NCBI GenBank assembly: GCA_030123625.1
Contig: CP126121.1
Span: 2,458,179 to 2,522,178, forward strand
Direction: 5' to 3'
Length of the DNA: 64,000 bases
Origin: Nitrospira sp.
Lineage (GTDB): Bacteria; Nitrospirota; Nitrospiria; Nitrospirales; Nitrospiraceae
The position numbers and the translations under genes are program-made. The notes under the pieces are model-generated. The model did no database searches. It saw only the letters and a list, made by a program, of their open reading frames with translations, and was not told the DNA's origin. Shown here in pieces: positions 17,547 through 63,336 of this stretch; within the stretch, counting starts at the first letter, position 1, and each line of letters starts with the position of its first letter.

Positions 17547-17614
17547 TGCGGTGCAAGCGCCGGGCTGTTGCTGCCGGCTTTGAAGCTATACCTCCGGGAT
17601 AATGACGCGCCCAT

Positions 17615-20005
17615 CTATTTTTCTTTGCTTTCGCTCCAGGCAGCCACTGCCTGCGCCATCTCTTCCAGTCGCAGAGCGGCACGCCCGAACACGGTGTCGG
17701 GTGGGTAGGAACCGTCAAGTCCTCGTTCGCCCACCGGGATGCCGGTGAGTAATTCCAAAGCTTCCTCGATCATATTCACGGCATAGACCGAAAAATGTCC
17801 GGACTCGACGGCCTCGACGACGTCGCGTCGAAGGGCCAAATGCTTGGTGTTGCGGGCGGGGATGATCACGCCCTGTTTTCCGGTCAATCCCTTCCGGGAA
17901 CAGGATTCGAAGAAACCCTCGATCTTTTCGTTCACCCCTCCGATCGGCTGTATTTCGCCCAGCTGATTGACGGAGCCGGTCACGGCCAGCCATTGATGAA
18001 TCGGCAGATCGGCCAGACTGGAGAGAATGGCGGCGAGCTCGGCCACGGCGGCGCTGTCGCCTTCCACTTCGGAATAGGTCTGCTCAAAGGTCAATGAGGC
18101 GCTCACCGCGAAGGGATGAACGCCGGCAAACTTGCCGGCTAAATATCCGGCTAACGTCAGCACCCCTTTGCTGTGAATCGTCCCGGCGAGTTCCGCCTCC
18201 CGCTGGATATCGATCACGCCCTTGGTGCCGACATATGTTCGAGCCGTGATGCGCGTGGGCCGACCGAACGCGTAGTCGCCGAGCTGATAAACCGAGAGGC
18301 CGTTGACCTGACCGACGACGTCGCCGTCAAGATCGACCATCAACGTTCCCTCTTTGATCTCATCCTGAATCCAGTGCTCGACCAGATTGGAACGACGGCG
18401 TTTATGCGTGACGGCAGCATCGACGTCCGCCCGCGTCACAAAAGAATGGCCATCCTTTCTGGCCCAGTATCCGGCTTCGCGGATGAGATCGCTGATGAGG
18501 CTGAACCGGAGCGACAGACGATCATGCCGATCGGCGAAACGGAGTCCTTGCCGAATGATTTCGGCCACCGCATCGGCACCGAAGTGCGGGAGCCCTTCTT
18601 CGCGGCAGAGTTTGCCGATGAATCGAGCATATTGCCGGTCCTGGCGCTCGCTTCTCGCGACCTCGGTGTCGAAGTCCGCCTTTACCTTGAAAAGCTTCCC
18701 GAAGTCTTCTTCATACGCTTGCAGGATATGGTAGAGGATGGGCGGCCCGACCATGATGACCTTGACGTTCACCGGGATGGGTTCAGGCCTCAGTCCCGCC
18801 GTCGAGAATCCGTAGAATTCTCCGGGATCTTCGATCTTCACCTCGCCTGTCTTAATCACGCGCTTTAACGCATCCCACGAGAAGGGTTGGCGCAGCATGT
18901 CCAACGCATTCACGATCAAGTAGCCTCCGTTGGCCAGCAGCACGGCACCGGCGCGGATCTCCATGAAGTCGGTGTACATCACACCCATGTGGGCACGCCG
19001 CTCGATCTTCCCGATCAGATTGGTATAGGTCGGGTGCGATTCGTCGATGACTGGGGCACCTGCCGTCGGGTCGTGCTGGACAATGAGATTAACCAGAAAG
19101 CGCGTCATGTCCGGTCGCTTGAATTCCAAGCCGGGGATGGCGATGGTGGGACCTTCGTGCGGGAGAAAGTCCTTGTAATGATGAACGATATCGTCTCGAA
19201 CCTGTTCCAGAAAGGTGGAAACAGCGGACAAGTTTTGATAGGTCCGTCGTAGGGTTTCATAACGGCCTTCCAAGATGTTCATGACCAATTGGCGATCCAG
19301 GTGTTGCTGCCGATGTTCAGCCTCTTTCTCAAGGCCGTGGATACGGACATGGAACTCACGGATTTCGCCTTCAAGGGCCTTGCGTCGTTCACTCAAGTCC
19401 CGCTGTTCCTCGTCGGTCATCGCTTCCATATCAGCGTCGGTCATGGACTTGCCGGCCTTGAGGGGGACAATCCCGAAGCCGACCGAGGTTTCCTCAAACC
19501 CAAACCCGCGAGTGCGGCTGAGTTCCGTCAGTTCATGGAAGAGCGCTTTTTTCTTGGTATCGATGTCGTCGTGCAATTTAGCTTTGGCATCGAGATACTT
19601 CTTGCTCTCAAACGCCAGAGGGATGTCGCGCCGCAATCCCTCGATGAATCCCGCCATTTCTCGTTTGAACGCTGCGCCTTGTCCGGCCGGAAGCGCGAGA
19701 GAGGTCGGACGAGAGGGGTCTTGGAAGTTATTGACATAGCACCAGTCGGACGGGGCGGGAGCCGCTTGAGCCAGGCGTTTCACCATCTGTCGAACGAGCG
19801 TGCCTTTCCCCGTGCCGACGGGACCTGATATGTACAGATTGAATCCGGGGCTCTTCACGTGCAGCCCGAATTCCAGGGCCTCAACCGCCCGTTCCTGCCC
19901 GATGATTTCCGTGAGGGGTTCCAACTCGCTCGTATCTTCAAAGCCGAGTTGCGCCGGGTCGATGATCGGCGAGAGCATTGAGACAGGAACTTTGAATTTG
20001 TCCAT
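17615..20005 (-). CDS. Lon-family ATP-dependent protease (LonB/YcbZ-like)
   Basis: A 796-residue AAA-protease of the archaeal-LonB/YcbZ type: an N-terminal domain without a classical Lon substrate domain, Walker A GPVGTGKGT (61-69), a long helical insertion (about 170-260), and a C-terminal serine-lysine protease domain. The catalytic dyad is Ser651 (VEGDSAAV) and Lys694 (GGVNEKIEG). It should degrade unfolded or regulatory proteins in the cytosol. It starts six bases after the ribosome-hibernation gene, forming a two-gene stress operon. Confidence 0.88.
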   Translation of the reverse strand: MDKFKVPVSMLSPIIDPAQLGFEDTSELEPLTEIIGQERAVEALEFGLHVKSPGFNLYISGPVGTGKGTLVRQMVKRLAQAAPAPSDWCYVNNFQDPSRPTSLALPAGQGAAFKREMAGFIEGLRRDIPLAFESKKYLDAKAKLHDDIDTKKKALFHELTELSRTRGFGFEETSVGFGIVPLKAGKSMTDADMEAMTDEEQRDLSERRKALEGEIREFHVRIHGLEKEAEHRQQHLDRQLVMNILEGRYETLRRTYQNLSAVSTFLEQVRDDIVHHYKDFLPHEGPTIAIPGLEFKRPDMTRFLVNLIVQHDPTAGAPVIDESHPTYTNLIGKIERRAHMGVMYTDFMEIRAGAVLLANGGYLIVNALDMLRQPFSWDALKRVIKTGEVKIEDPGEFYGFSTAGLRPEPIPVNVKVIMVGPPILYHILQAYEEDFGKLFKVKADFDTEVARSERQDRQYARFIGKLCREEGLPHFGADAVAEIIRQGLRFADRHDRLSLRFSLISDLIREAGYWARKDGHSFVTRADVDAAVTHKRRRSNLVEHWIQDEIKEGTLMVDLDGDVVGQVNGLSVYQLGDYAFGRPTRITARTYVGTKGVIDIQREAELAGTIHSKGVLTLAGYLAGKFAGVHPFAVSASLTFEQTYSEVEGDSAAVAELAAILSSLADLPIHQWLAVTGSVNQLGEIQPIGGVNEKIEGFFESCSRKGLTGKQGVIIPARNTKHLALRRDVVEAVESGHFSVYAVNMIEEALELLTGIPVGERGLDGSYPPDTVFGRAALRLEEMAQAVAAWSESKEK

Positions 20006-21923: not shown

Positions 21924-22040
21924 TCATTGGTCAATCGTCATTCGCCATTGGTGGAGAGTGAAGTCCATCGCGTGAGCACAATCAGTTAAGTCCAATCAAC
22001 CATTAACCATTCCCCATTGACCCATGACCATTGACCATCT
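21924..22040. repeat. Heptamer array between two kinase genes
   Basis: Left arm 21924-21951: TCATTGG, TCAATCG, TCATTCG, CCATTGG. Right arm 21999-22040: ACCATTA, ACCATTC, CCCATTG, ACCCATG, ACCATTG, ACCATCT. The arms are related as imperfect reverse complements (CATTGGT against ACCATTG). The spacer holds less regular DNA. The right arm runs through the start codon of the next gene (ATG at 22024). Confidence 0.75.
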
Positions 22041-42878: not shown

Positions 42879-43475
42879 GTGAAGGCGATCACTTCCAACG
42901 ATGTCATCCCGTACGAAGAATATGAACGGCAGAGAGAAGCCTTTCGCGCGAAGATCATCGCGCTGAAGCAGCGGCGCCGAATTTCCGTCGGCCCATTGAT
43001 CACCGTCGTTTTTGAAAATCGTGAGACACTCCGGTTTCAGATTCAGGAAATGATCCGAACCGAGCGAATCGTCGATCCGGTCAAGGTGCAGGATGAGCTG
43101 GATGTATACAACGCGCTCTTGCCGCAGCAGAACGAGCTGAGCGCCACCCTCTTGATCGAGATCACCGATGAGGCGAAGATGAAGGAGAAGCTCGATCAGT
43201 TCATGGGACTGGATCACGGCGAGAAAATGGCCATCATTGCCGACGGAGAAGAAGCCTTCGGCGAGTTCGAAGGCGGGCGAAGTCATGAGACGAAAATCAG
43301 CGCGGTCCATTTCGTCAGGTTTCGGCCGACCGCCACGATGAAAAGGGCCTTTGCGGACCTGACTCGGCCGGTGACGATTCGCGTGAACCATGGTACGTAC
43401 CATCAAGAGGTTCCTGTCCCGGGCAGCATGCGGGAAGAGTGGCTCGCCGATTTGAAAGGCGGTGCTGAGTGTTAA
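42879..43475 (+). CDS. DUF3501-family protein
   Basis: A 198-residue DUF3501 protein (ITSNDVIPYEEYERQREAFR, RISVGPLITVVFENRETLRFQIQEM). Its role is unknown, but it is regularly found with rubrerythrin and the Fe-S oxidoreductase, so it probably serves in the same peroxide or iron-linked path. The start is a GTG at 42879 with GGAG upstream. The last three codons and the stop (GCTGAGTGTTAA) are part of a heptamer repeat, so the C-terminus A-E-C is repeat-encoded. Confidence 0.85.
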   Translation: MKAITSNDVIPYEEYERQREAFRAKIIALKQRRRISVGPLITVVFENRETLRFQIQEMIRTERIVDPVKVQDELDVYNALLPQQNELSATLLIEITDEAKMKEKLDQFMGLDHGEKMAIIADGEEAFGEFEGGRSHETKISAVHFVRFRPTATMKRAFADLTRPVTIRVNHGTYHQEVPVPGSMREEWLADLKGGAEC

Positions 43476-43555
43476 GTGTTGGATGCTGAGTTTTTTAACG
43501 GTTTCAACCATCGTGTCATAACTCAGCACTCAGGACTCGGAACTCAGCACTGAAG
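43465..43555. repeat. Inverted heptamer array between DUF3501 and pterin synthase genes
   Basis: Left arm 43465-43492: GCTGAGT, GTTAAGT, GTTGGAT, GCTGAGT. Spacer of 28 bases. Right arm 43521-43555: ACTCAGC, ACTCAGG, ACTCGGA, ACTCAGC, ACTGAAG. The arms are reverse complements of the same heptamer, with small variations, and could fold into a long imperfect hairpin. The left arm includes the stop codon of DUF3501; the right arm ends five bases before the next ATG. Confidence 0.85.
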
Positions 43556-50796: not shown

Positions 50797-50891
50797 GCTC
50801 AGGTTGCCTCCTCACTGCCCTTCAACGCTTCCAGTGATCCGGCTGCGGTGGAAAGGTTTCTCCCGATTCAACTACTCAGTCTGCATGGACG

Positions 50892-51221: not shown

Positions 51222-51302
51222 ACAGAGTGTCGAGTCCTGAGTGCTAAGTGCTGAGTTTGAGGACGACTCTCCCAACTCAGCACTCAACGCTCAGCACTGC
51301 TT
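51222..51302. repeat. Inverted heptamer array filling the peroxiredoxin-thioredoxin gap
   Basis: Left arm 51222-51256: ACAGAGT, GTCGAGT, CCTGAGT, GCTAAGT, GCTGAGT. Spacer 51257-51274. Right arm 51275-51302: ACTCAGC, ACTCAAC, GCTCAGC, ACTGCTT. The same heptamer word as at 43465. The array starts at the base after the thioredoxin start codon and ends in the peroxiredoxin stop codon, so it is the whole intergenic gap. Confidence 0.85.
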
Positions 51303-52771: not shown

Positions 52772-52776
52772 CTCAA

Positions 52777-52837
52777 ATCTCGTTCCTCGTGGAGTGTATC
52801 TCGCAAACAAACGACGCTTCACGCTTCACGAACGACA
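52777..52837. repeat. Heptamer array between bipA and the DUF4261-like gene
   Basis: Left arm 52777-52804: ATCTCGT, TCCTCGT, GGAGTGT, ATCTCGC. Right arm 52810-52837: AACGACG, CTTCACG, CTTCACG, AACGACA. The right arm is regular with CG every seven bases; the left is weaker. The array fills the gap between the gene start at 52771 and the bipA stop at 52840. Confidence 0.7.
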
Positions 52838-52839
52838 TT

Positions 52840-54696
52840 TCATTTCCCCGCCTTCCTGGCTTTGCGGCGGTCTTCTGGGTTCAGCAGCCGCTTCCGGAGT
52901 CGCAGGTTCTGCGGGGTCACCTCGACCAACTCATCGGCCCCGATGTATTCCAAAGCGAATTCCAGCGTCATTTCACGCGGAGGCGTGAGTACCAAGGCTT
53001 CATCTGAACCGGAGGCCCGCATGTTGGTGAGATGCTTCTCTTTGCACACATTCACATCGAGGTCCTCATCTCGGCTGTTCTGGCCCACGACCATCCCTCG
53101 GTAGACTTCGATGCCGGGCCCGATGAACATGGTCCCGCGTTCCTGGGTCATAAAGATGGCATAACCCGTACTGACACCGTCTTCGTAGGCGACAAGCGAG
53201 CCATGCGGGGCGACGATTAGGTCCCGCTCTTCCGCCGATTCGTAGGCCGAAAAGACATGGTGCAGAATGACGGTCCCACGGGTCTTCGCCAGGAGCATGT
53301 TCTTCAACCCCATAATCCCTCGGGTTGGAATGTGGTATTCCAAATGCATCTCGCTGGTGCCGACATCGGAGTGAATGAGGCGCATGTGCCGCATTTCGCC
53401 GCGACGTTTACCGACCTCTTCGATGACCGTGCCCTGATAGGTTTCCGGCACCTGAATAGTCAACTCCTCGTAGGGCTCCATGACGGCGCCGCCTTCACGG
53501 TGAAGAATGACTTCCGGTTGCGAAACTTGTAGCTCATACCCTTCCCGCCGCATCTGTTCGATCAACACCGCGAGATGGAGCTCGCCTCGGCCCGCCACGA
53601 GGAAGCGGTCGGCGCTGTCTGTCTCATTGACGCGAAGCGACACGTTGGTTTCCAATTCCTTGAACAGGCGCTCACGTAAATGGCGTGACGTCAGGAACTT
53701 GCCTTCTCGCCCGGCAAAGGGGCTGTTGTTCACTGAAAAGGTCATCTGAACGGTCGGCTCGTCGATCGAGACGCGCGGAAGAGCGACCGGACGCTCGGCA
53801 TCGGCGATGGTATCGCCGATACTCACCTCATCGAGCCCCGCCACTGCGACAATTTCCCCGGCTTCCGCCCGCTCCGTATCCGTTCGTTCGAGGCCGGAAT
53901 AGACCGCCAAGTCCGAGACCTTGCCTGTGGTCTGAGCCCCATTCTTACCGAGCACTACGACGCTTTGTCGCCGGGAGATCGATCCCGATTGGATCTTGCC
54001 GATACCCAGCTTGCCTTTGTAGGCATCCTGGGCCAGGGCCAATACCAGTATCTGAAGCGGAGCCTCGGCGTGAATGGCAGGGGCGGGAATTTTATCCAGA
54101 ACGACGTCGAGCAACGGCGCGATTTCAACGCCGGGTTTATTGACATCGAGTGTGGCGGTGCCCTTGATCGCCGAGGTGTAGACAATGGGGAAGTCGAGTT
54201 GTTCGTCGGTGGCTCCCAGATGGACGAAGAGATCGAACGTACGGTTGACGACATCGTCGATCACGGCGTCCGGTCGATCGATTTTATTAATCACCACGAT
54301 GGCCTTGTGACCCAGCGAAAGAGCCTTGCGCAACACGAAGGTCGTTTGCGGCATCGGGCCTTCCTTGGCGTCAATCAGCAGCAGTACGCCGTCCACCATT
54401 CTCAAGGTACGTTCCACTTCACCGCCGAAATCAGCATGACCTGGCGTATCGACAATATTGATCTTCACACTGTTGTAGATGACGCTCGCATTCTTGGCTC
54501 GGATCGTGATCCCGCGTTCTCGCTCCTGATCCATCGAATCCAAAATGCGTTCGCCCATGTCGTCGATCTTGCGATGGACATGGGTTTGGCGAAGCAGGGC
54601 ATCGACTAACGTCGTCTTGCCGTGGTCGACATGGGCGATGATGGCGATGTTGCGGATATCGCTTCGGCGGTCATGAGGGGCACGTATCATGGTCAT
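52840..54696 (-). CDS. typA: GTPase BipA/TypA
   Basis: A 618-residue translational GTPase of the BipA family. Motifs in order: G1 AHVDHGKTT, switch I RERGITI, G3 [12 protein letters not shown]4 NKIDRP, then EF-G-like domains III and V ([32 protein letters not shown] in parts) and the BipA C-terminal domain. It binds the ribosome and is needed at low temperature and other stresses. I take the start at 54696 (M-T-M-I-R-A-P); a predicted promoter and a terminator-like hairpin lie just upstream. It is convergent to nothing and divergent from the PBP1A gene. Confidence 0.93.
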
Positions 54697-57515: not shown

Positions 57516-57585
57516 CCCCTCGTATCTCGTCGCTCGTGAAACGTGAAGCGCGATACGAAATACGCTTCACGAGATGCGCTTCACG
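57516..57585. repeat. Ten-unit heptamer array between hscA and iscX
   Basis: Ten consecutive heptamers, each ending in CG at exact seven-base steps (57521-22 through 57584-85): CCCCTCG, TATCTCG, TCGCTCG, TGAAACG, TGAAGCG, CGATACG, AAATACG, CTTCACG, AGATGCG, CTTCACG. TGAAGCG and CTTCACG units are partly inverted. The last unit includes the hscA stop codon. This is the most regular array in the window. Confidence 0.9.
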
Positions 57586-59401
57586 TTACTTCAGAAACTT
57601 TTTTCCCTCTCAGACCCTTTTTGAGGGAATCTTCCAGCATTACGACGTTCAAATGCTTGGCGGCCTGTTCGAGTTCCAGCATACGTGCCCGGATGGCACG
57701 GGGATCTGTTCCGTCCTTTGTGGTGGACAATTGCGACAATGCAGTGCGGATAGCATCGGCTTCCTCAGGTGCCACCAGATGTCCCGCTTCCGCCAATGAT
57801 TTATCGGTCGTCTTGATTAAGGCTTCGGCATCTAAGCGAGCTTCGATCAGCTTCCGTGCGTTGATATCATCCGCGGCAAACTTGAACGAGTCCTCGATCA
57901 TTTTCTCCACTTCGATGTCGGACAATCCGTAGGAAGGTTTGACCTCGATCGATTGACTTTGGCCCGTCCGCATGTCCGTCGCCGTGACATTCAAGATTCC
58001 GTTGGCATCGATCAAGAAGGTTACCTCAATGCGCGGTACGCCGGCCGGGAGAGGAGGAACCTTGAGGCGAAATCGTGCCAAGCTCCGGTTGTCTTTGACG
58101 AGTTCGCGCTCGCCTTGCAGGATATGAATGTCTACTCCGGTCTGACCGTCGACATAGGTCGTGAACATTTCCTTGGAGCTCGCCGGGATGGTCGTATTCC
58201 GGCGGATCAGACTGCTCATGACGCCGCCCATCGTTTCGATGCCGAGAGATAGGGGCGTCACATCGAGCAACAGCATATCTGTCGTCCCGCCGCCGAGAAT
58301 ATCGGCTTGAACAGCCGCCCCCAGTGCGACGACTTCATCCGGATTCAGGTGGCAATGCGGAGATTTCCCGAACAGCGCTTCCACGAGCTGCCGAACCAAC
58401 GGCATGCGAGTGGAGCCGCCCACCAAGACCACTTCATCAATGTCTTTCGGGTTGAGTCCGGCGTCCTTTAACGCCATACGACAAGGAACCAAAGTGCGTT
58501 CAATCACACTCCTCGCCAGCGATTCAAGCTGATCACGCGTCAGCTCTCTGGTAAAGCGTCCTTTGTTCTCCGGTAGCTCGACGGCGATCTCGGTCTTGAG
58601 ATCGTCCGAAAGGCGTATCTTTGCACGTTCAGCTTCCAGCCGGACGGCCTGTATGTGGTCGGGATAGCCGCTTAGGTCGATTCCTTCGCGCTCTCGGATT
58701 TCTCCTATAAAGAGATCAACCAACAAACGATCGACATCGTCTCCGCCAAGATGTGTATCTCCATGAGTCGCGAGCACTTCAAAGATACCGTCTTTCAATT
58801 TCAGTATCGATATATCGAACGTGCCGCCCCCGAAATCATACACGGCGATCGTGCCTTGCGTGTTTTTCTGAAGTCCGTAAGCCAGAGAGGCGGCGGTCGG
58901 CTCATTGATGATCCGCAAGACTTCCAACCCGGCAATGAGACCGGCATCTTTGGTGGCCTGTCGCTGGCTGTCATTGAAGTAAGCAGGAACGGTAATGACG
59001 GCCTTCGTGATGCTTTCGCTGAGATATGCCTCCGCGCGTAACCTCAATTCCTTGAGGATCATGGCGGAGATCTGCGGCGGCGAGTAACTCTTTTGGCCCA
59101 GTCGGATCCGAATGACGCCGCCGGTTTCAGTGAGGTGGTACGGAAAATAGGCGAGCTCGTTCTCGACATCGGCTAACCCCTTGCCCATGAAACGCTTCAC
59201 GGAATAGACGGTACGCTCGGGATTTCGTGTTAAATGCTCTTTCGCCGAATCTCCGACAATCAGTCCGTTGTCCGTCAAGGCCACGACCGACGGGACCATC
59301 GTCCGACCGTTGCGGTCCGGGACAATACAGGGCTGCCCGTCCTTCATGTACGCCACCAGCGAATTGGTTGTGCCGAGATCGATGCCGACTATACGTGCCA
59401 T
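57581..59401 (-). CDS. hscA: HscA, Hsp70-type Fe-S chaperone
   Basis: A 606-residue Hsp70 of the HscA type. The ATPase domain has GIDLGTTNSLVAY at the start, IINEPTAASLAYG and VLVGGSTRMP; the substrate domain contains TYVDGQTGVDIHILQGERE and FLIDANGILNVTATD. HscA pulls on the LPPVK loop of IscU to release the nascent cluster, and IscU here has that motif (98-102). It follows hscB, 22 bases downstream, in the isc operon. Confidence 0.95.
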   Translation of the reverse strand: MARIVGIDLGTTNSLVAYMKDGQPCIVPDRNGRTMVPSVVALTDNGLIVGDSAKEHLTRNPERTVYSVKRFMGKGLADVENELAYFPYHLTETGGVIRIRLGQKSYSPPQISAMILKELRLRAEAYLSESITKAVITVPAYFNDSQRQATKDAGLIAGLEVLRIINEPTAASLAYGLQKNTQGTIAVYDFGGGTFDISILKLKDGIFEVLATHGDTHLGGDDVDRLLVDLFIGEIREREGIDLSGYPDHIQAVRLEAERAKIRLSDDLKTEIAVELPENKGRFTRELTRDQLESLARSVIERTLVPCRMALKDAGLNPKDIDEVVLVGGSTRMPLVRQLVEALFGKSPHCHLNPDEVVALGAAVQADILGGGTTDMLLLDVTPLSLGIETMGGVMSSLIRRNTTIPASSKEMFTTYVDGQTGVDIHILQGERELVKDNRSLARFRLKVPPLPAGVPRIEVTFLIDANGILNVTATDMRTGQSQSIEVKPSYGLSDIEVEKMIEDSFKFAADDINARKLIEARLDAEALIKTTDKSLAEAGHLVAPEEADAIRTALSQLSTTKDGTDPRAIRARMLELEQAAKHLNVVMLEDSLKKGLRGKKVSEVT

Positions 59402-62703: not shown

Positions 62704-62711
62704 TCCTATTG

Positions 62712-62762
62712 CCGATCTGTTTGATCGGAGACTATAATGATCTCCGATCTATCCGGTCGGAT
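62712..62762. promoter_or_regulatory. Divergent iscR/fdx promoter with nested palindromes
   Basis: Three inverted repeats: CCGATC (62712-62717) with GATCGG (62723-62728); GATCGGAGA (62723-62731) with TCTCCGATC (62741-62749), perfect with a 9-base loop; and ATCCG (62751-62755) with CGGAT (62758-62762). The loop of the second holds overlapping -10 boxes for both directions: TATAAT on plus (62733-62738, toward fdx) and TATAGT on minus (62736-62731, toward iscR). Neither has a good -35, as expected for activator-dependent or derepressible promoters. Confidence 0.65.
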
Positions 62763-62837
62763 TAAGCGTAGCACGCAGGTTTCATTGGTGTCAATACACA
62801 GTCAGAGTCCAGCGCTATCTCAGAAAGGAACAGGCAC

Positions 62838-63259: not shown

Positions 63260-63336
63260 ACGCGTTGTTCGTTAAACGTTATTGGTTAAACGCAAGAATG
63301 AGGGTCTCGCGGTTAACGGTTACGATTCACGATAAC
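63260..63336. repeat. Degenerate heptamer array between fdx and the reductase gene
   Basis: Units by sevens: ACGCGTT, GTTCGTT, AAACGTT, ATTGGTT (GTT every seven bases, 63264-63287), AAACGCA, two irregular units, then GCGGTTA, ACGGTTA, CGATTCA, CGATAAC. Here both gene ends point toward each other, so this array is in a convergent gap. It is the least regular of the six. Confidence 0.6.

Follow-up and report, generated by a model that had tools for sequence, protein, structure and literature searches.

The locus under study is a short gap between two co-directional genes in the genome of a Nitrospira species, situated in a window (the whole analysed stretch of DNA) of 64,000 nucleotides. Two facing arrays of degenerate heptanucleotides occupy this gap, and five further gaps of the window hold comparable or weaker arrays. 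The individual features are:

43462-43492, + strand: left G/T-rich arm of gap 1, word AGTGCTG (class A), holding the TAA stop codon of the upstream gene (GAGTGTTAA); 23 of 31 pairs
43520-43550, + strand: right A/C-rich arm of gap 1, word ACTCAGC, ending 9 bp before the downstream ATG (43560); lag-7 score 15
51233-51257, + strand: left arm of gap 2, class A, based on sequence, inverted-repeat score and alleles in 30 genomes
51274-51298, + strand: right arm of gap 2, class A, based on sequence and inverted-repeat score
51301-51768, - strand: peroxiredoxin gene next to gap 2; the other neighbour is a thioredoxin-like gene, also on the - strand
57540-57551, + strand: perfect 12-bp arm of gap 3 (hscA-iscX), class B (CGTGAAG); lag-7 segment 57519-57564, score 15
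57576-57587, + strand: partner arm of gap 3, class B, based on inverted-repeat score
21928-21955, + strand: left arm of gap 4, class C (GTCATTG), between a 361-aa gene and a cysC-like adenylylsulfate kinase gene
22011-22037, + strand: right arm of gap 4, class C (CCATTGA), with the presumed start codon (22024) inside it
63269-63332, + strand: degenerate class B inverted array (GGTTAAC/CGTTAAA) between convergent genes, arms 63269-63297 and 63305-63332
52775-52840, + strand: marginal site with two or three CGCTTCA units and a weak inverted partner

The initial annotation had reported degenerate heptamers at six gaps or more, inverted at the clearest sites, and the inverted repeat is stronger than in any of 60 mononucleotide shuffles at all six. 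Best scores against the shuffled maximum are 15 v 10 at 21924, 15 v 9 at 43465, 17 v 15 at 51222, 12 v 10 at both 57516 and 63260, and a marginal 10 v 9 at 52777. The period-7 signal is strong at four sites (segment scores of 19 at 21924, 15 at both 43465 and 57516, and 13 at 51222) and weak at the other two (10 at 52777, 7 at 63260). Neighbouring genes are convergent at 63260 and co-directional at the other five sites. The arrays were also said to run into the adjoining genes, which is seen at 43465, where the left arm contains the stop codon, and at 21924, where the right arm includes the presumed ATG start of cysC. The array at 63269-63332 is present in the congeners G016 and G018 and absent in G012 and G057.

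For the genome as a whole, 40 stretches of 20 kb were sampled in addition to the window, amounting to 864 kb (18%) of the single-contig, 4.69 Mb genome (G000), together with 400 kb each from the congeners G052, G041 and G057. Part of the second batch of G000 stretches was chosen close to AGTGCTG sites already known, so that the first 464 kb give the more reliable densities. Periodicity was measured by comparing the sequence with itself at each lag and taking the maximal-scoring segments (+1/-1). In the first 464 kb, lag 7 yielded 16 segments scoring at least 12, all 16 of them intergenic, compared with 0 or 1 at each of lags 4-6, 8 and 10-11; lag 9 gave six, one of which is intergenic. Over 864 kb, 30 segments scoring at least 13 were obtained at lag 7, one being an artefact of masked Ns (stretch L142), and two each at lags 8, 10 and 11. 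Degenerate period-7 arrays, mostly intergenic, are thus about tenfold in excess over neighbouring periods in this sample. Intergenic autocorrelation likewise peaks at lag 7 (z 5.5), followed by lags 14 (z 3.8) and 21 (z 2.9) in that harmonic series, and is also raised at lags 3 and 5 (z 4.3 and 3.5). Abundance is species-specific: segments scoring at least 13 number 20 per 400 kb in G052, two in G041 (one due to masked Ns) and none in G057, so that G000 and G052 are rich in arrays and G041 and G057 nearly devoid of them.

The proposed genome-wide family of gap-filling inverted arrays, with a word common within each site, is borne out by these lag controls, and the excess of 7-bp periodicity which the annotation had suggested looking for is present throughout the sampled genome. 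Chance or an assembly artefact can practically be dismissed as an explanation, since lag controls, shuffles and recurrence across genomes all speak against it, the arrays occur in complete single-contig genomes and dozens of independent assemblies, and no point in its favour was found. The suspicion of an assembly artefact is thereby laid to rest. The remark that the word differs between loci is correct in that several words exist, but these group into few families, each of which is reused at several loci. In G000 the families have a conserved core, namely CTGAGNN (CTGAG plus two variable bases), CGTNANN and NGTCANT.

Regarding their anatomy, 39 well-formed hairpins whose two arms both carry the array word were collected from G000 and related genomes, each consisting of two opposite-strand arrays that face each other across a variable spacer. 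The left (5') arm contains more G than C in 37 of the 39 hairpins and the reverse in none, the 3' arm being C-rich. This polarity recurs in other phyla, where 30 further arrays found de novo comprise 23 G-first and six C-first cases (6:0 in convergent gaps). Loops differ from locus to locus, with neither a fixed length nor a conserved sequence. Both arms have the word in common, while the order of unit variants is not shared: copying of one arm from the other, which would mirror that order, was considered and rejected (median p 0.50 vs permuted units), the pooled excess arising partly from the flanks. Template switching, one of the origins initially suggested, is possible, but the order of units is not mirrored between the two arms. 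A conserved super-structure with AGTNNAA as third unit was likewise discarded as a general feature, as it occurs in only 8 of 155 arms; the arrangement AGTNCTG-AGTNNAA-AGTNCTG-AGTNCTG-AGT does recur in cyanobacteria, Nitrospira and a viral contig (L247, L251, L257, L278, L296, L341, L154:11890-11960). Besides 7-bp arrays, the congener G052 possesses inverted arrays of a 9-bp unit (TGGTCTGTC...GACAGACCA) with up to about 13 copies, which are also gap-filling with the G/T arm first (stretches L213, L214, L216 and L217; e.g., L214:16766-16888 and L213:4027-4117).

Within a genome, unit variants are shared across loci. In other phyla, each genome tends to have its own base at the variable position of AGTNCTG (R2 0.43, permutation p 0.0005), and in one acidobacterium a 14-bp super-unit with alternating G and A is common to about nine loci (55 alternating v 7 same steps). 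Such genome-wide sharing of variants between loci implies that local slippage alone is insufficient.

Gene orientation gives a divided picture. In this genus, 38 of 39 hairpins lie between co-directional neighbours, compared with 74% of comparable gaps (p 2e-4; home-made gene calls, with five orientations set by hand), and this near-exclusive setting suggests a link to transcription or operons. In other phyla, 37 of 59 flanked arrays are co-directional and 22 lie between convergent or divergent genes; hence, the orientation bias is not a property of the array class.

The behaviour of the arrays becomes most apparent from orthologous gaps, which were compared in up to 30 congeners each for gap 1 (the locus under study), gap 2 (peroxiredoxin-thioredoxin), gap 3 (hscA-iscX) and gap 4 (upstream of cysC). 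In every one of the 30 congeners an inverted array can be recognised in gap 2, built on one of three words (AGTGCTG, AGGACTG and GAAAGTC). Gap 1 is found with AGTGCTG arrays, with arrays of three other words, with half arrays comprising the right arm only, or as a 12-bp gap GGTGCGTAGCACC, which, stop codon included, looks like a collapsed hairpin. Among 30 relatives, gap 3 holds CGTGAAG arrays or GCGTATG arrays or measures just 16 bp. Gap 4 contains GTCATTG, GTGATGG or CAGC-type arrays or the collapsed form CAGTGATGAGTGATCAC, measuring 104 bp in G000 and, as a collapsed remnant, 5 bp in G016, G012 and G018. At two loci, the shortest orthologous gaps (GGTGCGTAGCACC; TCAGTGATGAGTGATCACAG) resemble collapsed arrays rather than clean empty sites. 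An orthologous gap may thus hold an array, no array, a seemingly collapsed small palindrome or another word, with no matching change in the flanking genes, and between sister species both arms switch word together. On a 30-genome tree, at least 8, 9, 11 and 8 state changes are required for the four gaps, the tree being a quick one with some weak branches and the gap states being scored by eye. Gap sequence is out of step with the species tree at all four gaps.

At gap 2, gap identity does not follow protein identity (Spearman -0.02; 0.12 by a second measure using nucleotide flanks). The sister genomes G054 and G007 share 96% and 95% identity in the flanking genes, but only 62% in the gap, which carries a different word, and G026 and G011 show 92 and 93% in the flanks and 55% in the gap. 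The distant pair G016 and G011, in turn, has flanks of 88% and 81% identity, while the gap is 93% identical over aligned positions (86% counting indels). Furthermore, the AGGACTG allele has a loop that is essentially single-copy within a genome and lies at the gap 2 locus, which points to exchange between orthologous loci. Two window gaps without arrays, 50797-50891 (adjoining gap 2) and 62704-62837, follow phylogeny in length and identity in six genomes; they may contain conserved promoters. Given replacement confined to the gap, a locus-specific loop and normal neighbouring gaps, whole arrays, arms plus loop, appear to be exchanged between orthologous loci. Alternatively, the gap 2 pattern may stem from old polymorphism together with strong constraint on the individual alleles. 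In G018 and G012 (L358/L353), the heptamer arrays of gaps 1 and 2 are additionally interrupted by an insert of the GCCCGCTTCGCCCGCTC...GCGGGCGAAGCGGGC type, which seems to belong to a different family of intergenic repeats.

The arrays are by no means restricted to Nitrospira-like bacteria. A search of 84,980 species' genomes (257 Gb) with the pattern CTGAGTNCTGAGT-(8-38)-ACTCAGNACTCAG returned at least 120 matching stretches, where about 0.06 are estimated by chance. The 80 matches listed of these stem from Acidobacteriota, Cyanobacteria, Chloroflexota, Nitrospirota, Planctomycetota and Bacteroidota as well as Delta- and Gammaproteobacteria, so that identical word and form are found in at least seven phyla. 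Inverted AGTGCTG-type arrays are also present on two putative viral contigs, classed as viral in IMG/VR (L341:5573-5646 and L342:5911-6055). Neither the viral collection nor 59 congeners contained the reversed-polarity pattern, the forward pattern being rare there too (3 stretches, 3 genomes); for the congeners, such strict word-pattern counts are too strict for degenerate arrays.

Intergenic heptamers of this kind have so far been noted piecemeal in few genera, each time with its own functional guess. The closest counterpart is found in Geobacter metallireducens, in the form of "predicted global regulator binding sites" of classes 1-3 (Aklujkar 2009, PMC2700814). These are degenerate tandem 7-9-mers, mostly in opposite-strand pairs with variable spacing, with several words per genome and one species being rich while a congener has none. 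In contrast, their words (GTTGCTYN, TCTCCGTS, MTYCTGA) were reported as unique to that genome, and a comparison of orthologous gaps does not feature in the main text. Intergenic heptamer arrays are also known for Xanthomonas (GGGAATC) and Nostoc (GGGGA(C/T)T), usually with four units of a G-rich word, 70 of 186 being convergent inverted pairs, and with length and sequence varying among close species (Rehm 2015, PMC4692102). However, those genomes have one G-quadruplex-forming word each (PMC4692102), whereas the present arrays use several words without G-runs, replaced at one gap; runs of at least three G per unit, the criterion applied to Xanthomonas, do not occur in AGTGCTG, CGTGAAN or GTCATTG. 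The TAACTGA repeats of Beggiatoaceae, Cyanobacteria and Bacteroidetes are intergenic heptamers with a patchy distribution over phyla as well, but they are direct, almost never inverted, and located upstream of start codons (MacGregor 2015, PMC4679880). Short pieces swapped for unrelated ones between conserved flanks have been described as dimorphic and "homeologous" small variable segments and ascribed to homology-assisted illegitimate recombination, with no tie to inverted short-period arrays (Touzain 2010, PMC2884548). Hence, contrary to the initial annotation, the inverted form as such is not new, being preceded by Xanthomonas and Geobacter metallireducens (PMC4692102, PMC2700814). What seems to be new is the word shared across phyla, the G-first arm order, the unit variants common to the loci of one genome, the lack of a G.U excess over A.C, and the way in which complete arrays are replaced at orthologous gaps, out of step with the species tree. 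In the literature searched, no description of AGTGCTG as a bacterial repeat was found.

The reading preferred here, to which about even chances are assigned, is that the arrays are non-coding DNA elements rather than gene-specific regulators; these elements would spread, become homogenised and replace one another as alleles through recombination. Arrays would arise and grow where single strands form hairpins, by slippage and template switching, and copies would then be homogenised among the loci of one genome. Gap alleles could pass from one species to another when short tracts recombine, with the conserved ends of the genes as anchors, and the arrays would persist because gaps tolerate them, any benefit stemming from the inverted architecture and not from the word. 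Four observations count against such elements: local slippage alone hardly accounts for one word being present in at least seven phyla; neither an enzyme nor an insertion boundary nor a target duplication was found; the co-directional setting in this genus suggests a tie to transcription or operons; and a purely neutral element would be expected to have disappeared from some genomes, as it has at gaps 1, 3 and 4, while gap 2 has kept its array in 30 of 30 genomes despite at least nine word changes.

It is the persistence at gap 2, together with the joint change of word in both arms and the co-directional bias in this genus, that lends some appeal to a role in RNA. An intercistronic stem could protect or process the mRNA or set the translation ratio, as in the operon stoichiometry proposed initially, with words drifting and pairing kept by selection. 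Two class A hairpins are indeed predicted to be strong (z -5.7 and -4.7), but three of the six sites are predicted to be no more stable than shuffled sequences, and within the window Rfam 15 yields no match at gathering score. If pairing in the transcript were under selection, G.U should be tolerated and A.C should not. On the sense strand, G.U:A.C amounts to 43:45 at 38 loci of this genus and 40:30 at 37 loci elsewhere (83:75 in sum; upper 95% limit of the G.U share in arrays, 0.61), and to 45:59 at gaps 1-3 pooled, compared with 20:2 for tRNA stems from the same data. These tRNA stems were relied on as control because terminator-like hairpins, the other intended positive control, gave 26:24 and are probably mostly chance hairpins. 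With no excess of G.U over A.C, the counts lend no support to strong selection on RNA pairing; they may be compatible with weak selection, or with selection acting on arrays that have had too little time to diverge. Taking also the 22 of 59 arrays between convergent or divergent genes in other phyla into account, the RNA role is considered rather unlikely.

Still less probable are binding sites for a nucleoid protein or a global regulator, in which each 7-mer would be a half-site and the inverted pair would join two protein clusters. Each word consists of a conserved core with variable positions (CTGAGNN, CGTNANN), pairing is inverted and one word recurs across phyla, all of which would suit such a protein, and binding of HU/IHF was already proposed for the Geobacter arrays (PMC2700814). 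Unrelated words in one genome and even in one gap, however, misfit a single sequence-specific protein, as do 7- and 9-bp periods in one genome; the 9-bp arrays of identical architecture in a congener also speak against the fixed 7-bp step that the annotation had envisaged. Another analogy is provided by REP/REPIN elements (BIMEs), which are dispersed intergenic palindromes between co-directional genes as well. REPs measure 20-40 bp, bear a GTAG or CGTC tag and are usually accompanied by a RAYT transposase. Although dispersal over many loci with genome-specific variants and the presence on two viral contigs would agree with miniature elements mobilised in the same manner by a transposase, this too is improbable: GTAG and CGTC occur at the foot of the hairpin in 4 and 3 of 78 ends (5.1 and 2.1 expected), fixed length and a conserved loop between loci are lacking, and gap 2 loops are locus-specific.

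A bolder version, which we hold to be unlikely, would regard the arrays as a bacteria-wide, largely unrecognised element class that keeps its inverted, G-arm-first architecture, with a dedicated process copying words between loci and swapping hairpin cassettes of about 90 bp between species at fixed gaps whose boundaries are the gene ends. The evidence as a whole unites intergenic heptamer arrays from at least seven phyla into one class by architecture and polarity, and one gap can trade its entire array while the adjoining genes remain nearly identical. Two old questions thereby become testable: does selection or mere tolerance maintain such repeats, and by what route do non-coding alleles of less than 100 bp pass from one species to another? 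Arrays of two words were additionally observed in a tRNA cluster and around an apparent rpmG (ribosomal protein L33) at L045:15656-16100 and 17600-17860, in gaps between genes that are usually highly expressed.
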